Origin: a virus
DNA: 52,671 nt
Virus record (IMG/VR): IMGVR_UViG_3300015195_000007
Span: 1 to 52,671 of that record
Direction: 5' to 3' (one strand)
A program made the translations under genes and the position numbers. Shown piece by piece: positions 3,013 to 52,597 of this stretch; the first letter of the stretch is position 1, and each line of letters begins with the position of its first letter. The notes beneath the pieces were generated by a model, which worked only from the letters and a program-made list of their open reading frames with translations, was not told the origin of the DNA and ran no database searches.

Positions 3013-3444
3013 ATGATAATAGGCTTCACAGGAACGAAAAACGGCATGACCCCGCAGCAACGGGCAAGCTTTCTTAATATGCTCGATGTCATAGATGAGT
3101 TTCATCACGGAGACTGCATCGGGGCTGATGAGGAGGCTTCTATCTTAGCGGCTGGAATCAATATCGAAAAAATCGTTACGCATCCCCCAGAGAACCCAAA
3201 GGCCAGGGCGTACTTTCCTCTCCGGAAATACCATTTCGATACTTGTCTGGAACCAAAGCCCTACTTAGTGCGCAACCACGCCATTGTGGACGCCTGCGAA
3301 CTGCTCCTGGCGGCGCCTAGCGGGCGCACAATGGTACTGCGTAGCGGGACATGGGCCACGGTACGGTATGCGATCAAGGTCGGTAAGCCCTACACCATTC
3401 TGTATCCCGACGGAACAGTTAGACACGAATATAAGGAGCCCTGA
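3013..3444 (+). CDS. SLOG-fold (DprA/YpsA-like) protein
   Basis: 143 residues from ATG 3013, directly after the repeat array. The N-terminus MIIGFTGTKNGMT is the glycine-rich first loop of SLOG (Rossmann-like) proteins. HGDCIGAD and a later LLLAAPSG loop fit the GGAxGaD and ligand-binding positions of the fold. SLOG proteins bind nucleotides or nucleotide-derived signals, so a nucleotide-sensing or nucleotide-metabolising role is plausible. The exact subfamily is not determined. Confidence 0.7.
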   Translation: MIIGFTGTKNGMTPQQRASFLNMLDVIDEFHHGDCIGADEEASILAAGINIEKIVTHPPENPKARAYFPLRKYHFDTCLEPKPYLVRNHAIVDACELLLAAPSGRTMVLRSGTWATVRYAIKVGKPYTILYPDGTVRHEYKEP

Positions 3445-3575
3445 TGTCAGCGCCAGTGTTGATTTACTCTGGGGCAGTTCTGCTAATGCCGTTCGCCGCA
3501 TACTTGGGTGTCAAGATCGGAGAAGGGCTAATGGATTGGTGGGACAGACGATGCGGTCGAGAACCGAGACTCTAA
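3444..3575 (+). CDS. small membrane protein, 43 aa
   Basis: ATG 3444 overlaps the previous TGA (ATGA). The first 25 residues (VLIYSGAVLLMPFAAYLGV) form one transmembrane helix. The rest is charged (MDWWDRRCGREPRL). Ends at TAA 3573-3575. No family recognised. Confidence 0.55.
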   Translation: MSAPVLIYSGAVLLMPFAAYLGVKIGEGLMDWWDRRCGREPRL

Positions 3576-3593
3576 CAAGGAGGCAGAGGCATA

Positions 3594-3746
3594 ATGGAAC
3601 TATTAGGTCAGGGTGCCTGGTGTAAACAATGCCAGACCTTTTATACAGATTCAGATCCGGACGACCCGTCTGAGTGCGAGCATGTTCGTCCTGACAGAGT
3701 GGACGCTGATGTCGTTCTTCACGATCCCGCAGAAGAGGACATCTGA
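3594..3746 (+). CDS. zinc-binding micro-protein, 50 aa
   Basis: ATG 3594, with AAGGAGG about ten bases upstream. WCKQC near residue 10 and CEH near residue 28 give a CxxC...CxH zinc site, and the tail is acidic. The TGA overlaps the next ATG (ATGA at 3743-3746 region). Function unknown. Confidence 0.6.
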   Translation: MELLGQGAWCKQCQTFYTDSDPDDPSECEHVRPDRVDADVVLHDPAEEDI

Positions 3747-3991
3747 TGACACGACCACAAGTAGAGCTACCAGATCTTGTGAACGGCAAGCCATACCGGA
3801 TCACCCATCAGTCTCCGACGCAGCGATACCCTCGCTACAGCATTCTTCGTTACCTTGGGCAGAGTATAGAAGATACCTTCTGGGACGCTCGTCCGGCAGC
3901 CGGTACGCAGACCTTCCCCAAAGCTTGGATCAAGGAGATCAACCCTTTAGTCGAAGGGAGGGAGAAGCCGTGTATGAACAAAAGGGCGTGA
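3746..3991 (+). CDS. hypothetical protein, 81 aa
   Basis: From ATG 3746, in an overlap with the preceding stop, to TGA 3989-3991, which overlaps the ATG of the methyltransferase gene. Basic and aromatic-rich (KPYRITHQSPTQRYPRY). No recognised domain. Tight coupling to the methyltransferase suggests co-expression. Confidence 0.65.
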   Translation: MTRPQVELPDLVNGKPYRITHQSPTQRYPRYSILRYLGQSIEDTFWDARPAAGTQTFPKAWIKEINPLVEGREKPCMNKRA

Positions 3992-10171: not shown

Positions 10172-11182
10172 ATGAAGAAAGAGATATTACTTAGGACGAG
10201 CGAGAGAACAAAGTTTAAGGAATGTCGCCAGGCTTGGTTCTGGGCGTACGAGGATAGACTCGTCAAGATTGGACCACCGACTACAGCCCTGAGATTTGGC
10301 GACCTTGTCCACCGTGCGTTGGCTGCGTATTACGTCCCGGGCAAGCGTAGGGGGCCACACCCGGCCCGTACCTATGCCACCCTGTACGACAACCAGCTAC
10401 AAACGGGTATGCCTGAAATGAAAATAAGGAAGGACGAAGACTTTGGGTCTCCATCCTATTTGGACCCTCTTTTGTTTGGTGTTGATATACTTGAGCACTA
10501 TATCGATACTTACGGCAAAGATGCTCGATACAAAATCATCAAACCTGAGCAAGCTTTTCAGTTGGATATCCATCATCCTCGGAATGGACGCTATCTCTTC
10601 ACTTATGTCTCTCAGATGGATGCTGTGGTACAGGATCTTAATACCGGGAAGCTTGGCCTATTTGAGCATAAAACTTCTGCTAGCACTTCTCCCTTCGGAG
10701 CGCCGCTCACACTAGACGAGCAGGCGAACTCGTACTGGACGTTCGGTACGATGTGGCTCCATGCTACAGGGCAGTTGAAGCCGGATCAGGACTTGGACTT
10801 CATGCTCTACAACTTCATTCGCAAAGCGATGCGAGATACTCGCCCTAAGAACTCTGAGGGTCTGCATCTCAACAAGGACGGTAGTGTCAGCAAGAAGCAG
10901 CCAGCGCCGTTCTTTCGGCGGGAGACCGTCATGCGTGGACAGCCAGAACGGGAGGTCGTGTTCCGCAGGACACTGAACGAGTTTCGAGAGATGCAAATGG
11001 TCCGAGAGGGCAAGCTGGCCGTCTATAAGAATCCAGGAAAGCACTGCGGATTCTGTCCATTTCGGGACCCTTGCGAAGTTCACGAAGTAGGGTCAGACTA
11101 TCAGGCGATTCTTGACAATATGTATACTCAGTGGAATCCTTATGCAGAGCATGAAGATAGGGTCGAGGATGACTTGGCGTAG
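10172..11182 (+). CDS. Cas4/RecB-like PD-(D/E)XK nuclease
   Basis: 336 residues from ATG 10172. TSERTKFKECRQAWFW near the N-terminus, RFGDLVHRAL (about 43-52), a QMDAVVQ aspartate (about 150) and FEHKTS (about 165-170) follow the order of the Cas4/RecB nuclease family. Cysteine 18 plus the cluster CGFCPFRDPC (about 292-301) would bind a 4Fe-4S cluster, as in Cas4 and AddB. It probably processes DNA ends for recombination together with the Sak4-like ATPase downstream. The last 23 codons have a second diverged copy after the next gene (11578-11652). Confidence 0.85.
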   Translation: MKKEILLRTSERTKFKECRQAWFWAYEDRLVKIGPPTTALRFGDLVHRALAAYYVPGKRRGPHPARTYATLYDNQLQTGMPEMKIRKDEDFGSPSYLDPLLFGVDILEHYIDTYGKDARYKIIKPEQAFQLDIHHPRNGRYLFTYVSQMDAVVQDLNTGKLGLFEHKTSASTSPFGAPLTLDEQANSYWTFGTMWLHATGQLKPDQDLDFMLYNFIRKAMRDTRPKNSEGLHLNKDGSVSKKQPAPFFRRETVMRGQPEREVVFRRTLNEFREMQMVREGKLAVYKNPGKHCGFCPFRDPCEVHEVGSDYQAILDNMYTQWNPYAEHEDRVEDDLA

Positions 11183-11579
11183 TTATCGGCGAAAGTTCTA
11201 TGAGGCTAATCCGACCGGGCCTTGGATCTGTTATTATTGTGGTGTCGCCGTCAATGATTTCTCCAAGGTCGTCGTTCATCACAAAGATGAGAGTTGGAGA
11301 AATGAAGACCTTGAGAATCTAGTGTCGATTCATAAGGGGTGCCATACTAAGGTTCATCCAAGGAAATGGTCTGAGACTAGTAGGCGTGAGGTCGGAAATA
11401 GAGCTCGAGGAAGAGTTCTAACCGAGAGGCAAAAGAAAAAAATAAGTGATTCTCATAAGAATAGAAAACCAGTATCTGCAGAGACGAAGAGGAAAATGGT
11501 GGCAGCCCAGACTGCTCGTAGAAAGCGTGAAGCTGCTGGTATAATGATCAAAGGTCGGGCAAATGGAAAGCACGTGTGA
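11169..11579 (+). CDS. HNH homing endonuclease with NUMOD3-like tail
   Basis: 136 residues. ATG 11169 (MTWRSYRRKFYEAN) overlaps the nuclease stop by 14 bases; longer starts would run deep into that gene. CYYCG, VVVHHKDESWRNEDLENL and HKGCHTKVH form the HNH fold with its zinc cysteines. Residues about 85-125 (KKKISDSHKNRKPVSAETKR) match the NUMOD3 DNA-contact motif of homing endonucleases. The gene is visibly more A+T-rich than its neighbours. It lies between two homologous copies of the end of the Cas4-like gene, so it is probably a mobile insertion. Confidence 0.85.
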   Translation: MTWRSYRRKFYEANPTGPWICYYCGVAVNDFSKVVVHHKDESWRNEDLENLVSIHKGCHTKVHPRKWSETSRREVGNRARGRVLTERQKKKISDSHKNRKPVSAETKRKMVAAQTARRKREAAGIMIKGRANGKHV

Positions 11580-11652
11580 CAATATGTTCACTACCTGGGA
11601 CCCATACGCAGAACATGAAGAAAGAGAGGAGCTAGACAGTGGGGGCAGTTAG
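11578..11652 (+). pseudogene. displaced C-terminal remnant of the Cas4-like nuclease gene
   Basis: Read from GAC 11578 to TAG 11650-11652, this segment encodes DNMFTTWDPYAEHEE and a short tail. It aligns without gaps to the end of the nuclease (DNMYTQWNPYAEHED), with 14 of the first 20 residues and 43 of 60 bases identical. It has no start codon of its own in that frame. An 11-base identity (TGACAATATGT at 11113 and 11577) marks the junction. Simplest reading: the original 3' end of the nuclease gene, pushed aside when the HNH cassette arrived with its own version of the end. Confidence 0.8.
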
Positions 11653-11770
11653 GATTCGTCGTCGCATGAGGGGGCGTCAAGATCCACGCCCGAGAGGCAA
11701 GAAGTGGTCAGAGAATGAATGGAGAGATCATTCGTCTCGTACTTCTCGTCGTAGCGGTACCAAGCGATGA
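11639..11770 (+). CDS. basic micro-protein, 43 aa
   Basis: GTG 11639, preceded by GAGAGGAGC, overlaps the remnant nuclease stop by 14 bases, the same overlap the HNH gene has with the present nuclease stop. Very basic (VRIRRRMRGRQDPRPRGKKW ... SRRSGTKR). The stop overlaps the next ATG (ATGA). Probably nucleic-acid binding. Confidence 0.5.
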   Translation: MGAVRIRRRMRGRQDPRPRGKKWSENEWRDHSSRTSRRSGTKR

Positions 11771-12482: not shown

Positions 12483-12565
12483 ACGAAATACTCGGCTTCG
12501 CTGTTATCTTCGCTGCTTTCTATCTAGGGATGCACTACGAAAGAGGGAAGCATGGCAAGACCTAA
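12479..12565 (+). CDS. single-helix membrane micro-protein, 28 aa
   Basis: ATG 12479 in an ATGA overlap; TAA 12563-12565, overlapping the next gene by 14 bases. ILGFAVIFAAFYLGMHY is one transmembrane helix followed by a basic tail (ERGKHGKT). It follows the holin-like gene directly and might modulate it. Confidence 0.5.
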   Translation: MNEILGFAVIFAAFYLGMHYERGKHGKT

Positions 12566-36661: not shown

Positions 36662-37152
36662 GCGACAAGCACAGCGGCTACGATCGGCGCTGCCGTGGGG
36701 GCCAGCTTCACGAGGTACTTGCTGGCTGCCGCCCCGCTGGCGTATTGCCTGGCGTTGCTGGACACCTGGACGGGCCACACATCGACCACATCTCCGATAG
36801 TTGGAATTCCACCAGTTACGCCTCCTTGGAATCCAGTGGCGCAGATGATTACCCATCCGATCGTTCCCTTGACGAACTTCGCCTTGATCGGGTTGACGGT
36901 CTTGTCCTCGTAGAAGGTGAGCATACAGTCAGCAATCGCATCTTCACCGGGGATTTTGGTGATGAGCACCTGAGACATGTCCGGAACGTCGATCGGGGTG
37001 TTGTCGAAGCTGAACCCCTGAATGTCGCTGAGCTGGCTAGTGACATCCAAGCCACCCGCACCGTTGAGCTCGCTGCACTTCGGCGCCGCCGGAGTTGAGT
37101 TGGTTGTGGTGAACAGGACGTCAGTAGCGCCCATCTGCATGAAGCGTGCCAC
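36658..37152 (-). CDS. major tail (tube) protein paralogue B
   Basis: 164 residues from GTG 37152. It shares with its neighbour (37170-37649) the blocks MQMG, QGFSFDNTPIDVPDMS, LITKIPGEDAIADCMLTFYE and VWPVQVSS, then ARQYASGAAASKY. Central sequence is beta-rich, as expected for a tail tube subunit. The N-terminal loop and the segment after LTFYEDK differ most. The two copies probably arose by duplication. Which one is the main tube cannot be told from the sequence. Confidence 0.75.
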   Translation of the reverse strand: MARFMQMGATDVLFTTTNSTPAAPKCSELNGAGGLDVTSQLSDIQGFSFDNTPIDVPDMSQVLITKIPGEDAIADCMLTFYEDKTVNPIKAKFVKGTIGWVIICATGFQGGVTGGIPTIGDVVDVWPVQVSSNARQYASGAAASKYLVKLAPTAAPIVAAVLVA

Positions 37153-37169: not shown

Positions 37170-37649
37170 TTAGGTGAGAGCCCGGTCTACGACCGGAGCC
37201 TGCCGAGGGGCGAACTTGACGATGTACTTCGACGCTGCTGCTCCGCTGGCGTATTGCCGAGCACTAGAAGATACCTGAACCGGCCACACGTCACACTTAT
37301 CAGCGATGGCTGGAATGGCACCGGCGATTCCGTACCCGAAGATGACAACGAATCCGATCGTTCCCTTGACCAGCGCCGTTTTGGCCGGGTTGGAGACCTT
37401 GTCCTCGTAGAACGTCAACATGCAGTCAGCGATGGCGTCCTCACCAGGGATCTTCGTGATCAGTGGGTTGGACATGTCCGGAACGTCGATCGGGGTGTTG
37501 TCGAAGCTGAACCCCTGAAGGTCACTCAGTTGAGGAGTAAGTTCGACACCTGCGTTAACCTCTGTCGCAAGCACCGCAGCCAGAGTACTGCTGGCGATGG
37601 TGAGCACCCACCAGCACTTCGTGGTGCCCATTTGCATGAATCGTGTCAT
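37170..37649 (-). CDS. major tail (tube) protein paralogue A
   Basis: 159 residues from ATG 37649, in an ATGA overlap with the small upstream gene. It shares long blocks with paralogue B, including the FDNTPIDVPDMS and PGEDAIADCMLTFYE stretches. The N-terminal 30 residues are different and hydrophobic (CWWVLTIASSTLAAVLATEV). Tail tube subunits of siphoviruses are of this size and sit between the tail terminator and chaperone genes. One of the pair may form the tube and the other a tip or cap section. Confidence 0.75.
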   Translation of the reverse strand: MTRFMQMGTTKCWWVLTIASSTLAAVLATEVNAGVELTPQLSDLQGFSFDNTPIDVPDMSNPLITKIPGEDAIADCMLTFYEDKVSNPAKTALVKGTIGFVVIFGYGIAGAIPAIADKCDVWPVQVSSSARQYASGAAASKYIVKFAPRQAPVVDRALT

Positions 37650-45495: not shown

Positions 45496-46149
45496 TCACT
45501 TTCGGTTCTTCGCAAGAGCGGCACCGTGCCGCTGCTCTAACATCGCTTTCGCCTGTCCCTGTATATCCCCGGGTTTGGGAGGTCGTGGACCAGGACCAGG
45601 ATCTCCCGGCTTGGGAGGTCCACTTCCTGGTTCCGGCGATGCCGGTCCGAAAAGCATAGGCAACCGAGCTTTCAGTGCCTCAACAGCCGTCTTGATCACG
45701 CCGTCGTCAGCCTTTGAAGGGTCGTCGATGGTCACAAGCTTGGCCACGTCGTCCAGGGTACCATCCTGGACGCCTGCACGCACCAACGCCCTCTCAATCT
45801 TCGCCATCATCCGCTCATGAGTGGCGCTAGTCTTCTCCTTCGCAGCCTCCTCTCGGTCTTTGGCTGCCCTCTCGGCATCCTTCTGTTGCTGAGTCTTGGT
45901 CGCCTCGTCAGCGTCCCGTTGACGCTTCAAGATCTCTTGAGCTTGTTCCATCGTCTCGACGCCAAGACTCTTCAGGAGTTCGTTGGTAGCAGCAGTGCGC
46001 CCCTCTGCCTTTTCTCTTGTTGCGATCCTGGTGATATCTTCTTGCGTAAAGGTCTTCCCTGGTTCTGGTGGCGTTGGAGCTGGTGCCGGAGCGGGAGGTG
46101 TCGGTGCCGGGGCCGGTCCTGGCGCTGGCGCTGGCGGTATTACGGTCAT
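45496..46149 (-). CDS. scaffolding protein
   Basis: 217 residues. N-terminal Pro/Ala-rich stretch (about 4-30), then EDITRIATREKAEGRTAATN and a long charged coiled coil (about 70-120, rich in Lys/Glu/Gln), a short globular segment (VEALKARLPMLFG), a second Pro/Gly-rich linker and a basic helix (AKAMLEQRHGAALAKNRK). This order is typical of phage scaffolds, whose basic end binds the capsid. The Pro-rich parts are unusual in length. Confidence 0.8.
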   Translation of the reverse strand: MTVIPPAPAPGPAPAPTPPAPAPAPTPPEPGKTFTQEDITRIATREKAEGRTAATNELLKSLGVETMEQAQEILKRQRDADEATKTQQQKDAERAAKDREEAAKEKTSATHERMMAKIERALVRAGVQDGTLDDVAKLVTIDDPSKADDGVIKTAVEALKARLPMLFGPASPEPGSGPPKPGDPGPGPRPPKPGDIQGQAKAMLEQRHGAALAKNRK

Positions 46150-46200
46150 AATCTCTCCATTCCTGGTATTCCGGTTTATCCCGGTGAGCTAAGGGTACAC

Positions 46201-47922
46201 CTAGCGAGCGGGAGGCGCAGGCTTAGGCACTGGCGGGGACTGCGGCACCGTGGGCGGTAGCCCTGGCGGCTGCGTTGGCCCTGGCACTGGTCCCGGTGGC
46301 ACTGGTGCCGGTGCTGGCGGTGCATTCCGTATCGTTGGTGGTAGTCCTGACATTCCAAGACGCTTACGAACTTCTTCAACGTCTCCGGTAACTGTCAGCA
46401 TCTTGTCTGCGGCATCGAAGTCGTTGGCTTGAATGTCCTGAATCTCTTCTGCCGCATCATCAATCGGGAACCCAGCGTACATCAGAATCCTGATCGCCGT
46501 CTCTGGGCTGATCGCCTTGGCTGCCAGCAGGTTAGTGACCAGCACCTGCGCTTCTGTCTTATCGGCTGGCAAGAAACTACCGAACCGAATGCTCGCTGGG
46601 AAAATCTCCGCCAGGTCTGCATTCTGTAAAAAGTATCTTGCCACGAACTTCATCAGTAGAGAATACTTGTAGTGCCGAATGAGACGCATCTCGTTGATCA
46701 TGGCTGTGTGCGGGGCGAAGCTCAGTGTTAGGCTGATCCCTGAAGGAACTTCGTTGGGCTTTATTCTCCCGAGTAGTGCCTCAGGCACATGGCTATTGAC
46801 TGCGAGCCGAGACAGCAGGTCGTTTTTGTATGTAGTAAGGGCATCAAGTGAGTGTGACGTATCGATGACCGTCGCCGTTCCGTCTCCAGTTTCCCAAACG
46901 GTGCCGGGACCGTAAGAACGAATGTTGCCATCTTCGTCCTTGGGTGCAGAAGCACCACTGAGAGCAATCGGAGGTGTGCCAGTGGTCGCACTAGCAGCCT
47001 GAAGATCAGTATCCGTAGCCACGAGATCATCAAATATCTGAAGAACTTCTGCGAGCGCACTTTTCCCAAAGTGTTCTTCCCCACTATCGCTAACGAAACA
47101 GGGAATGTGAACAACTGGAATAAAGTCGATTTCCAGGTCTTCGTGGTCATGGTCGTAGATCGCCTTTGTTGGCTCGAGGGTTTCTATCTGTCCACTGGCA
47201 TTTTCTAGGAACCAAGTTGCATCTGTGTAGAGCACCGTCTTCGTGCTCGGCTTGAGGTTCCATGGATACATCCGTGGCGAATCGAGATCTACTAGCTCCC
47301 AAGTCTTGCGTCTTACCTTCTTAATGATGCCGTTGACCGCATAGTTGTTCTTCTCTTCGTATTCCCATGCGATATGAACCTTGTCTGGGAACTCTTCTTC
47401 GCTGTGCTCTTCAAGAACAGGGAAATAGAATCCTGGATTGTAGACTCGCAGTCTGGGTCGTTCCTTGTCTGCGTCCCAACCAAGAACGTACACGCCGTCA
47501 CCCAGCTTTACAGAGTGACGTTCGCACTCTACTATCTTCAGTGAGATCCCCTCGTCATCCATCCATTGGCTGAGAACGTCGTGTTGCTCCATGGCAGTCT
47601 CGTCTGGTTCTTCACCTTCAGCCATTGGAATGCTGAGGGTTTGCTTGTCTCCGATCAGACTGGCAAGAATCTGATTGACGATGGTGCTAGGGTCACCGTA
47701 TTCTCGCCGAGAGTAGCTCTGCTCATCAATCGGATGTCGCAGCCATAGATGAGCTACGTTGCGGCAGTACGATTCGAGAATGGTGTATGCCTGGAGACGT
47801 CGATAATGATCTCCAACCCAGCCAGGAATAAGCTGAGCGGCAGGTCCAGTCCGATAGCCGAAGACCTCTTTGTAATCTAGATAGCTCCAGCTATCTAGGA
47901 ATATTCTCAGGGGATGCCTCAT
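46201..47922 (-). CDS. portal protein
   Basis: 573 residues. The N-terminal VGDHYRRLQAYTILESYCRN and LWLRHPIDEQSYSRREYGDP resemble SPP1 gp6-type portals, followed by LGDGVYVLGWDADKERPRLR and a stalk region (TGTPPIALSGASAPKDEDGN). The C-terminal 60 residues are Pro-rich. Located directly after terminase, it forms the dodecameric channel for DNA packaging and release. Confidence 0.88.
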   Translation of the reverse strand: MRHPLRIFLDSWSYLDYKEVFGYRTGPAAQLIPGWVGDHYRRLQAYTILESYCRNVAHLWLRHPIDEQSYSRREYGDPSTIVNQILASLIGDKQTLSIPMAEGEEPDETAMEQHDVLSQWMDDEGISLKIVECERHSVKLGDGVYVLGWDADKERPRLRVYNPGFYFPVLEEHSEEEFPDKVHIAWEYEEKNNYAVNGIIKKVRRKTWELVDLDSPRMYPWNLKPSTKTVLYTDATWFLENASGQIETLEPTKAIYDHDHEDLEIDFIPVVHIPCFVSDSGEEHFGKSALAEVLQIFDDLVATDTDLQAASATTGTPPIALSGASAPKDEDGNIRSYGPGTVWETGDGTATVIDTSHSLDALTTYKNDLLSRLAVNSHVPEALLGRIKPNEVPSGISLTLSFAPHTAMINEMRLIRHYKYSLLMKFVARYFLQNADLAEIFPASIRFGSFLPADKTEAQVLVTNLLAAKAISPETAIRILMYAGFPIDDAAEEIQDIQANDFDAADKMLTVTGDVEEVRKRLGMSGLPPTIRNAPPAPAPVPPGPVPGPTQPPGLPPTVPQSPPVPKPAPPAR

Positions 47923-49654: not shown

Positions 49655-52597
49655 TTATCCAATCCGTATAGATTGAGAGGGCTTGGTCACAGTGGTAATG
49701 GTACCAGTCTGGTCTAAAGTCGTAGTGTTCTTGGTGGTACCGGCGGTTGTTCTGTTGTCTGGATCTTCTATGTCTGTTAGTGCTATGATAAAGGTATGCG
49801 GATTTGGCAGACCAACGACGGATGATACTTTGACTGGGAAAGATAAGATTCCATATCCTGCCGACACTTGGGAGATCGACGGTATTGACCCTATCCCATG
49901 AATGATAGCGGTAGTGACCGTAGCACCAAAGCCGACGCTAGCCTGGTCATTCGGAGTAACACCCGCCCCAGAGATAGTTGTGGGGAATGCAATAGTTCCA
50001 ATCCCAGCGATAGTTGTTGGGGCGGGAGTAGATCCTACGCTAGATATTTTTCCTGGAGTGGCTAATGCCCCAGAGCTAGGCGTGGGTGGTTTGACTGTAC
50101 CGATACCTGTGACTGTGATTGGAGTTACAAGAGATCCTGTACTGCTAATCGGTGCATTTGTAGATCCTGCCCCTGCAATCGTGGCTGGAGCAGCCAGCGC
50201 CCCGGAGCTGGGAGTCGGAACCCTAACAGTCCCGACGCCATAAATCGTTACGGGAGCAGCCAGAGCACTCGCTGCTCCTGTTGGGGCGGGAGTAGATCCT
50301 ACGCTAGATATTTTTCCTGGAGTGGCGATAGACCCTGCGCTGAGTGTCGGCACTGAGACTGCGCCCACTGCTGCGATCGTTGCAGGAAATACCGTGACGC
50401 CTGCGCCAGAGGTCGGAGCTGGAACTGAACCAACACCTGTGATTGTTGGTGCGGCTGCCGTAGCGCCAGCTCCTGCGCTCGGAGCTCTTGCGGTTCCTGT
50501 TGTAGCGACAGCTATCGGAAAAGCTTGGTTACTAGAACTACCGGATGGGGCTGGTATTGAGCCAATGCCAGAAATGGTCGTGGGAAGAGCTGTGGCACTG
50601 TTCCCACTGCTAGCTGTTGGCGCAGGGACCGAACCAATATCTGCGATCGTCGTAGGTGTGGCAAGGGATCCGGAACTGCCAGCCTGTATCGGTGTTGATC
50701 CTATGCCAGCGATTGTTACTGGTGAAGCCAGCATTCCGACGCTAGGCGTGGGTGCCCGAACTGTGCCTATCGCTGATATCGTGGTCGGAGCAGTTGTGAC
50801 CCCCGATCCTGCACTAGCGGCTGGAGTCTGGATAGATCCTACTCCCGCAATCGTTGTAGGCGTGGCCAGCATTCCGATACTTGGCGTAGGAGCAGTGATC
50901 GTACCTGTTCCCGAAATCGTAGTTGGAGTGGCAAGAGATCCAGTACTTGTGGCTGAGGCTGGAAGTAAACATGAACCTGAGACTGTTGCGGGAGAGGCTT
51001 GTGTCCCCGAACTACCTGTGGGGGCAGGCAGTGAGCCAATAGCGGAAATAGTTCCGGGAGTAGCTAGAGTCCCGATGGTACCGCTTGGAATCTTAACCGT
51101 ACCTGTCCCGGCGATTGTTACTGGAGCAGCTTGCGCCCCGACGCTAGGGATCGGTGCTGGAAGTGACCCCGCACCCGCTATCGTGGTTGGAGTAGCTAAC
51201 GATCCTGAGGTAGGAGTAGGTGCGGGGAGGGAGCCAATACCTGATATTGTAGTGGGCAGTGAGTTCGCCCCAGAGCCAGAGGACGGATTAGGAAGTGATC
51301 CTACTCCCGCAATCGTTGTAGGCGTGGCCAGCATTCCGATACTTGGCGTAGGAGCAGGAATGGATCCTATACCTGCGATTGTGACAGGTAGTGCAGAGGC
51401 TCCGGCGTTGGGGGTCGGTACTGGGATTGCTCCTACAGCAGAGATCGTGGTCGAGGTGGCAAGAGCTCCCGCACTAGGATTCGGGTTAGGAAGTGATCCT
51501 ACGCCTGAGACTGTTGCGGGGAGTGCAACTGCGCTCGTACCCGCACTTGGGGATGGGGCTGGTATTGAGCCAATGCCTGCGATTGTGGTTGGGGCAGCCT
51601 GATAGCTGATGCTAGGCGTGGGGACTTTGAGAGATCCTGCACCTGCTATCGTTATCGGAGCAGATGACGCTCCGACACTTGGCGACGGTACTGGAGTTGC
51701 TCCTACGGCAGAAACCTGGGTCGGTGTAACTAGCGATCCGGAGCTGCCAGAGGGTGCGGGCAACGATCCTATAGCGGAGATTGTTACTGGCGAAGTTGTT
51801 GATCCGACACTAGGATTCGGGTTAGGAAGTGATCCTACGCCTGAGACTGTGGTTGGAGTAGCTAACGATCCTGAGGTAGGAGTAGGTGCGGGGAGGGAGC
51901 CAGTACCTGCAATCGCACTAGGGGCAGCCGTTGCTGAACTATTATCTGGACCAGGGAGCCCGGTGGCGTTTACCTGGATGGAATCCATCCAGAGCGTAAC
52001 TATTGCTGCTGGTGCGCCGTTAACTCCGAAACGGACAGTGTCCGAGCTTGCCGCCCCGAAGTTCTGGGCGCTGGTGCTAATCGTCTCAGTGGCGGTGACC
52101 GAATCAGTAGGATAGAGCGAAACGCTGCCAGAGCCAGTGGTGGCCGAGAAAGTGAATGTGAACTCGATCCGGTTCCACGCATTGAGTGTGACAGTGTTTG
52201 TGGACGTGACGGCGGTCGCATTAAGCGTGTCTACGATCGCCAGCTTGCCCGCGGAGGTAAGCCGGATTCTGGCGGTGTTGGTGGCACCCGACAGGAAGCT
52301 GACCAAGGAGAGGTTGGCGGTCGGGTTGGCTGTGACGTAAAAATACAGACGCCCATAGACCGTTGTCTGCGTGCTAATCGACGCCAGCCATTGCAGGTAG
52401 GCGTTAGCACCGCTGGAGGTGACTATTTTGTAGGAAAGACTGCCATGAGCAGCATGGGCGTTGTCGGCTGTAAGAGTACTAGTGCCGCCGATGTTGACAG
52501 TATCGAAGGCAGCGCCAGACGTACCGCCAGAGTTGGCTGTGGTTACAGTAGTGCCACTGGTACCGCCCTCGGCGTTATTGGCTACAGGCAGAGCCAT
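49655..52597 (-). CDS. fibre-like repeat protein: LamG-like N-terminus plus about 29 repeats of 22 aa
   Basis: 980 residues. The N-terminal 215 (HGSLSYKIVTSSGANAYLQW, LNAWNRIEFTFTFSATTGSG, DTVRFGVNGAPAAIVTLWMD) resemble a LamG/concanavalin-like carbohydrate-binding sandwich. Then follow about 29 near-regular copies of a 22-residue unit (consensus LATPTTIAGVGSLPAPTPSS then GS), rich in Thr/Ser/Ala/Gly/Pro, then degenerate copies and a polar end. The repeats should form an extended solenoid or stalk. Several units are identical in DNA. Placed before terminase, away from the tail genes, it could be a head or tail fibre. Confidence 0.65.
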   Translation of the reverse strand: MALPVANNAEGGTSGTTVTTANSGGTSGAAFDTVNIGGTSTLTADNAHAAHGSLSYKIVTSSGANAYLQWLASISTQTTVYGRLYFYVTANPTANLSLVSFLSGATNTARIRLTSAGKLAIVDTLNATAVTSTNTVTLNAWNRIEFTFTFSATTGSGSVSLYPTDSVTATETISTSAQNFGAASSDTVRFGVNGAPAAIVTLWMDSIQVNATGLPGPDNSSATAAPSAIAGTGSLPAPTPTSGSLATPTTVSGVGSLPNPNPSVGSTTSPVTISAIGSLPAPSGSSGSLVTPTQVSAVGATPVPSPSVGASSAPITIAGAGSLKVPTPSISYQAAPTTIAGIGSIPAPSPSAGTSAVALPATVSGVGSLPNPNPSAGALATSTTISAVGAIPVPTPNAGASALPVTIAGIGSIPAPTPSIGMLATPTTIAGVGSLPNPSSGSGANSLPTTISGIGSLPAPTPTSGSLATPTTIAGAGSLPAPIPSVGAQAAPVTIAGTGTVKIPSGTIGTLATPGTISAIGSLPAPTGSSGTQASPATVSGSCLLPASATSTGSLATPTTISGTGTITAPTPSIGMLATPTTIAGVGSIQTPAASAGSGVTTAPTTISAIGTVRAPTPSVGMLASPVTIAGIGSTPIQAGSSGSLATPTTIADIGSVPAPTASSGNSATALPTTISGIGSIPAPSGSSSNQAFPIAVATTGTARAPSAGAGATAAAPTITGVGSVPAPTSGAGVTVFPATIAAVGAVSVPTLSAGSIATPGKISSVGSTPAPTGAASALAAPVTIYGVGTVRVPTPSSGALAAPATIAGAGSTNAPISSTGSLVTPITVTGIGTVKPPTPSSGALATPGKISSVGSTPAPTTIAGIGTIAFPTTISGAGVTPNDQASVGFGATVTTAIIHGIGSIPSISQVSAGYGILSFPVKVSSVVGLPNPHTFIIALTDIEDPDNRTTAGTTKNTTTLDQTGTITTVTKPSQSIRIG
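49880..51950 (-). repeat. 66-bp coding repeat array in the fibre-like gene
   Basis: About 29 tandem 66-base units. Stretches of full identity include 54 bases shared by 51183-51236 and 51849-51902, 47 bases shared by 50016-50062 and 50280-50326, and nearly 60 bases shared by about 50836-50894 and 51299-51357. Such identity among otherwise diverged units points to recent recombination. Reverse frames are open over long spans because of the repeats, not because they are genes. Confidence 0.85.

Follow-up and report, generated by a model that had tools for sequence, protein, structure and literature searches.

The viral record IMGVR_UViG_3300015195_000007, whose 52,671 bases we refer to as the window, carries on its plus strand a gene for a PD-(D/E)XK exonuclease of the Cas4/RecB-like type (positions 10172-11182; PF12705, E 4e-11; phrog_1218, E 1e-66). 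This is followed in order by an HNH endonuclease gene, an orphan stretch, small open reading frames and a gene for a Sak4-like annealing protein at 12552. The HNH gene runs from the ATG at 11169 to a TGA at 11577-11579 and encodes a protein of 136 residues (PF01844, E 3e-4; phrog_144, with matches to several phrog HNH families), in which residues 21-65 form the HNH domain and residues 101-115 a NUMOD3-like stretch (NUMOD3, E 0.004). The orphan stretch (11577-11652) is read in frame from GAC at 11578 to TAG at 11650-11652 and its peptide repeats that of the exonuclease gene's working end. We believe it very probable that this exonuclease gene was invaded at its 3' end by an HNH homing cassette.

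The end of the exonuclease gene is thus represented twice. A direct repeat at 11113-11167 and 11577-11631, with a spacing of 464 bases, is identical at 41 of 55 bases, and at 43 of 60 bases when 60 are compared, the figure given in a preliminary description of this DNA. The last 23 exonuclease codons, stop included, and the stretch behind the HNH gene share a peptide (DNMYTQWNPYAEHEDRVEDD versus DNMFTTWDPYAEHEEREELD). Chance similarity was rejected as a source of this likeness, since the next best match to the 55-mer anywhere in the window reaches only 28 of 55; at 99% of sampled window positions no 55-mer match exceeds 32 within the following 3 kb. Two further details of the preliminary description proved accurate. 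The 11-base match TGACAATATGT is present at both junctions, and it is here that the similarity of the copies abruptly begins, with none visible between them upstream of it. Moreover, each copy overlaps the next start codon by 14 bases (HNH ATG at 11169 and nuclease stop to 11182; GTG at 11639 and orphan stop to 11652).

The 14 differences between the two copies are distributed over codon positions one, two and three as 2, 3 and 9 (p=0.017 against equal shares). Because they fall on third positions, both copies have diverged as coding sequence, and have done so before they became neighbours; such a pattern is expected of two alleles that were joined, and a recent duplication that then decayed would not be expected to show it. 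A tandem duplication in this genome, between whose copies the HNH gene landed later and whose second copy is now decaying, would also yield two similar ends flanking an HNH gene. However, one of its copies would be functionless, whereas the third-position differences mean that both diverged while coding, and we therefore regard such an origin as very improbable. An intron or intein was rejected on the reading frames and for lack of room for an intron core, in agreement with the preliminary description, an Rfam search being no part of this test: the nuclease frame is unbroken up to its stop, which overlaps the HNH start, so that the HNH gene lies outside any such element. Splicing of a group I intron or intein would, in addition, make no sense of the flanks, as both copies encode the same residues and the nuclease is complete before the HNH gene.

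The insertion step itself is directly visible in Gordonia phage Xenia2, which was reached in two steps: a permissive search with the HNH protein of the window led to an HNH protein of phage Wojtek, and the latter as query led to Xenia2. Here a related HNH gene stands directly after the same Cas4-family exonuclease gene (C-termini NSKTTVLLKKKTGVS for the exonuclease and NSKTTVLLKRKTGVS for the HNH protein, each followed by a stop), whereas the sister phage DumpTruck has a single exonuclease end without an HNH gene. The two genomes align at 259 of 265 positions (97.7%) before the insertion and at 296 of 300 (98.7%) after it, and the Xenia2 insert sits exactly between GAAGG[T/C]GC and CGAGAACAG of DumpTruck. 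Compared with the DumpTruck end, the Xenia2 copy behind the HNH gene is identical at 47 of 48 bases but the working end at only 29 of 48. In the 15 codons before the stop the two Xenia2 copies show 13 synonymous codon differences and one nonsynonymous one, 14 of 15 residues being the same, and by codon position their differences number 2, 2 and 13. The empty site together with the identities of the copies therefore establishes that a synonymously rewritten end and the HNH gene together make up the cassette, and that the resident end was shifted downstream and now encodes the tail of the HNH protein. A tandem duplication is excluded in this case by the single end of DumpTruck. In both Xenia2 and the window the HNH reading frame continues across the right junction and takes its stop from the resident sequence; in the window the TGA is made up of the first three bases of the orphan.

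The Gordonia phages Turuncu, GTE5 and HubbaBubba of the genus Gruunavirus carry a mirror form of the cassette, placed at the 5' end of the exonuclease gene (loci L097, L098 and L099, about 3400-3990). In these phages the resident start (MTDLPLLRGSERK in HubbaBubba) heads the frame of a related HNH gene, with a rewritten start placed after the HNH gene and ahead of the exonuclease body; in HubbaBubba the copies differ at 1, 0 and 6 first, second and third codon positions. The 515-base-pair cassettes of HubbaBubba and GTE5 are 94.8% identical while their flanks are 51% and 75% identical, and conversely GTE5 and Turuncu share flanks of 93-95% identity around cassettes of 84%. As the identities of cassette and flanks disagree, the cassette moves independently of the surrounding genome. 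Taken together, the alignments of Xenia2 and of the Gruunavirus phages establish, at the level of sequence, that such cassettes were inserted into a gene that is otherwise unaltered and that they have passed from one lineage to another. In all three 5' cases seven extra bases at the junction between rewritten start and body (CCG-AGAT-CCG) break the frame, and the start annotated for Cas4 (MELVRV... or VRELIRV...) is downstream of the conserved FGTGIH motif. Judging from these frames, either this start was probably misannotated or ribosomes read the gene by hopping from CCG to CCG.

The traffic may also run the other way. The Cas4 gene ends of Wojtek (L110:2118-2207) and ParvusTarda (OP172868, 44354-44415) are of the cassette type in their first half and of the resident type in their second half, and no HNH gene is present there. 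Such a chimeric end is probably a footprint, left either when the two ends recombined and the HNH gene was lost or by partial gene conversion, since conversion from a cassette-bearing phage would give the same product.

Applied to the window, the cassette would comprise the 464 base pairs from 11113 to 11576, as indicated by the repeat spacing, the sharp onset of similarity, the Xenia2-like layout and the low G+C content; its limits could be shifted by up to 11 bases because TGACAATATGT is present at both junctions. The exonuclease body proper, to which the PF12705 and phrog_1218 matches belong, would then extend from 10172 to the insertion point at 11112, and the segment 11113-11182, which is in frame with the body and ends in the TAG at 11180-11182, would be the replacement 3' end now in use. 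The orphan at 11577-11652 would be the displaced end. The G+C content of 11113-11576 is 45.0% as compared to 51.7% for the window, placing it among the lowest 2.6% of segments of equal size, so that the A+T-richness ascribed to the HNH gene in the preliminary description holds in direction but is modest in size. Our confidence that a homing cassette entered this gene stems from the repeat beyond chance, the third-position bias, the empty site opposite Xenia2, the mobile 5' mirror cassette, the chimeric ends of Wojtek and ParvusTarda, the lack of an orphan in 79 viral relatives and the low G+C content of the cassette.

We picture the following course of events. The cassette would bring two parts. 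One covers the gene from the insertion point through the stop and encodes nearly the same protein in different codons; the other is an HNH gene that overlaps the new stop and itself lacks a stop codon. During co-infection the HNH protein of a cassette-bearing phage would cut an uninserted nuclease gene near its end, and repair from the donor would copy the new end and the HNH gene into the cut gene. The rewritten end would keep the nuclease working and would probably also shield the donor from cutting. We infer cutting, homing and immunity by rewriting, as well as the direction of the insertion in the window.

But which of the two ends is native in the window? The preliminary description held that the replacement end had come with the HNH gene and that the resident end had been displaced; this is borne out by the empty site of Xenia2 and DumpTruck, and by that parallel 11113-11182 would be the newcomer in the window as well. 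The comparison with uninserted relatives that had been suggested as a check does not discriminate. The nearest relative of the nuclease (L001) has 54% protein identity and a single end; it matches each of the two window ends at 7 of 23 residues, third positions being near saturation. All 79 viral relatives, that is L001 and 78 further loci, are at or below this identity and have one end each and no orphan, no second copy having stood out in the scan. A search of bacterial genomes returned no relative of the nuclease, and queries with the window HNH protein brought up nothing usable among viral contigs and, in phages, no relative at E 1e-3. Because no relative is close enough to tell the resident end, we can only infer the direction of the insertion here. 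It is conceivable that the working end is native and that the orphan arrived behind the HNH gene from a donor in which the HNH gene preceded the gene end, and the window sequences by themselves do not tell the native end. Then again, the native copy in Xenia2 is the one behind the HNH gene, and we consider this reverse order of events unlikely.

Several observations weigh against our proposal of a homing cassette in the window. The collections searched hold no close uninserted relative of this phage (best protein identity 54%), and neither codon usage and adaptation, nor G+C content at third codon positions, nor a profile of 51 family ends points to the native end. The window HNH protein is only 23% identical to that of Xenia2 and 32% identical to that of Wojtek, and the insertion points in the window and in Xenia2 differ by some codons. 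Furthermore, cutting of DNA by these HNH proteins is presumed, and so is any essential role of the exonuclease gene. Presence and absence, or movement, at the HNH site are seen in Xenia2 and the Gruunavirus phages, whereas the window has distant uninserted relatives only.

The fate of the orphan may be linked to the gene behind it, a small open reading frame for 43 residues without family match (11639-11770), whose start overlaps the orphan stop. A Shine-Dalgarno-like AGGAG lies within the orphan, shortly upstream of the GTG at 11639 (11626-11641 for both), and would explain why the orphan has been retained. One might go further and regard the orphan as nothing but the leader and ribosome-binding site of that gene, its likeness to the nuclease end being kept by this function, with which the AGGAG and the retained 14-base overlap would agree. 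This accounts for the persistence of the orphan but not for the fact that it encodes, in frame, the same 20 residues, and we give it hardly any credence; as a secondary role, a leader function is compatible with displacement of the end by a homing cassette.

How common is such an arrangement? When 21 HNH loci were surveyed for duplicated flanks, the window, Xenia2 and the Gruunavirus phages alone were conspicuous, and in a wider survey of 54 loci the window and Xenia2 were still near the top, HubbaBubba being less clear. The high flank score of one further locus (L140) was due to similarity between HNH-type sequences and not to duplication of a gene end. For short ends the test has little power, as the amidase cases described below scored within the null. 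The HNH gene of Gordonia phage MoiGyank (L095:2884-3321) overlaps the end of thyX with its start by 14 bases and shows no duplicated end. As to other HNH genes of this group, Wojtek carries an unannotated one ahead of dnaE (L094:4900-5370), of which DoobyDoo (L104:3501-3617) and NovaSharks (L105:3501-3605) retain only a C-terminal remnant in the same place. Elsewhere in the window there are imperfect tandem repeats at the right end (49967-51922) with units that are multiples of 66 bases, a direct repeat of 196 bases (36840-37035 and 37337-37532; 80% identical, spacing 497) and short G-rich tandem repeats of the GGTGCCGGAGC type in coding-like sequence (46057-46322).

A separate set of observations concerns endolysin (amidase) genes. 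In Geobacillus phage PK5.1 (L096:3190-3240) an HNH gene lies in the start of such a gene, the start is duplicated and the junction reads His-UAG-His; this junction recurs in an Anoxybacillus genome and in the viral contigs L135 and L136, the latter diverged. A pattern scan of viral contigs yielded nine amidase genes, all with UAG between two histidines, and five other matches that are not amidases. The nine amidases are about 27-53% identical to one another, two closer pairs excepted, and long open reading frames that end at UAG in the ordinary way are present in eight of the nine viral stretches. Among 398 sampled genomes of Bacillota, the host phylum, all eight pattern matches are amidases, six with UAG and two with UAA. 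The in-frame stop (loci L096, L123, L135, L136, L176-L179, L182, L185, L186, L188, L189 and L190-L197) falls at the zinc-ligand motif D-x-G-H-UAG-H-G-G, and HNH genes lie directly upstream of several of the interrupted amidases. A synthetic 'stop-hop' has been defined by matched codons around a stop, and according to a 2016 review no natural in-frame case was then known (PMC5009743); by its codons, the His-stop-His junction is a candidate for a natural stop-hop or for read-through.

It is possible, though we would not yet call it probable, that the window cassette belongs to a general class of 'end-replacing' homing cassettes of phages, natural counterparts of home-and-rescue gene drives, which enter either end of a gene and carry a synonymous rewrite from there outward. 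The 5' members would leave behind bases that ribosomes hop (CCG-AGAT-CCG; His-UAG-His in the endolysin genes), which would link homing to bypassing as in T4 mobA/gene 60. What the cassettes described here mean is that a selfish nuclease gene can enter a coding gene without intron, intein or loss of the gene, by bringing along the displaced part in rewritten form. The sister genomes of Xenia2 and DumpTruck make the insertion step repeatable in the laboratory, and orphan ends as well as chimeric ends without an HNH gene are footprints that allow the history of homing genes, their gain and their loss, to be traced.

In the literature searched, mostly open papers, we found no account of end-replacing cassettes in phages, an earlier report being possible; a search by key terms of the available text of PMC2988022, of a 2023 survey of phage homing (PMC10448857) and of a 2025 work on lactococcal HNH genes (PMC12724721) returned no carried replacement end. 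The free-standing HNH and GIY-YIG endonucleases of T4-like phages (mobE, mobA, seg; intronless homing) likewise lie outside introns and inteins and near genes of DNA metabolism, and immunity of the donor is expected there through sequence differences near the site. However, they insert between genes or split a gene, and the accessible part of that account describes no carried end (PMC2988022). In the T4 mobA/gene 60 arrangement an HNH gene lies within a gene, beside extra 5' sequence of the following frame, the 50-base bypass, which is thought to be protective; it is comparable with the 5' cassettes of the Gruunavirus phages. As far as the available portions of these papers go, it differs in that the gene is split and no end is duplicated, whereas the window cassette sits at a 3' end and involves no bypass (PMC3014915, PMC5009743). 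HomeR home-and-rescue gene drives combine a nuclease directed at a gene with a recoded version by which that gene is restored (PMC7968924). These are synthetic CRISPR constructs, and the likeness is an analogy of logic and not of kinship (PMC7968924), but the logic of such engineered drives evidently occurs naturally in phages.

The closest counterparts are the mORFs of fungal mitochondria, from which this kind of element is already known: those of Glomus atp6, atp9, cox2 and nad3 (PMC3630166) and the Allomyces atp6 case, as cited in the same paper. There too an endonuclease open reading frame is preceded by a replacement C-terminus of foreign origin, which completes the host gene, with the native C-terminus displaced downstream (PMC3630166). 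The copies differ more in DNA (64-81% identity) than in protein, and the native end was told from uninserted relatives (PMC3630166). Different from the mORFs, which are mitochondrial and encode LAGLIDADG or GIY-YIG enzymes, the present cassettes encode HNH proteins, reside in phages and also occur in a mirror form at gene starts. The window cassette thus works like a mORF but is not one by descent, its enzyme being of the HNH type. The same anatomy, an endonuclease gene behind a replacement end with the displaced end downstream, is present in the window, and its direction is proven in Xenia2.
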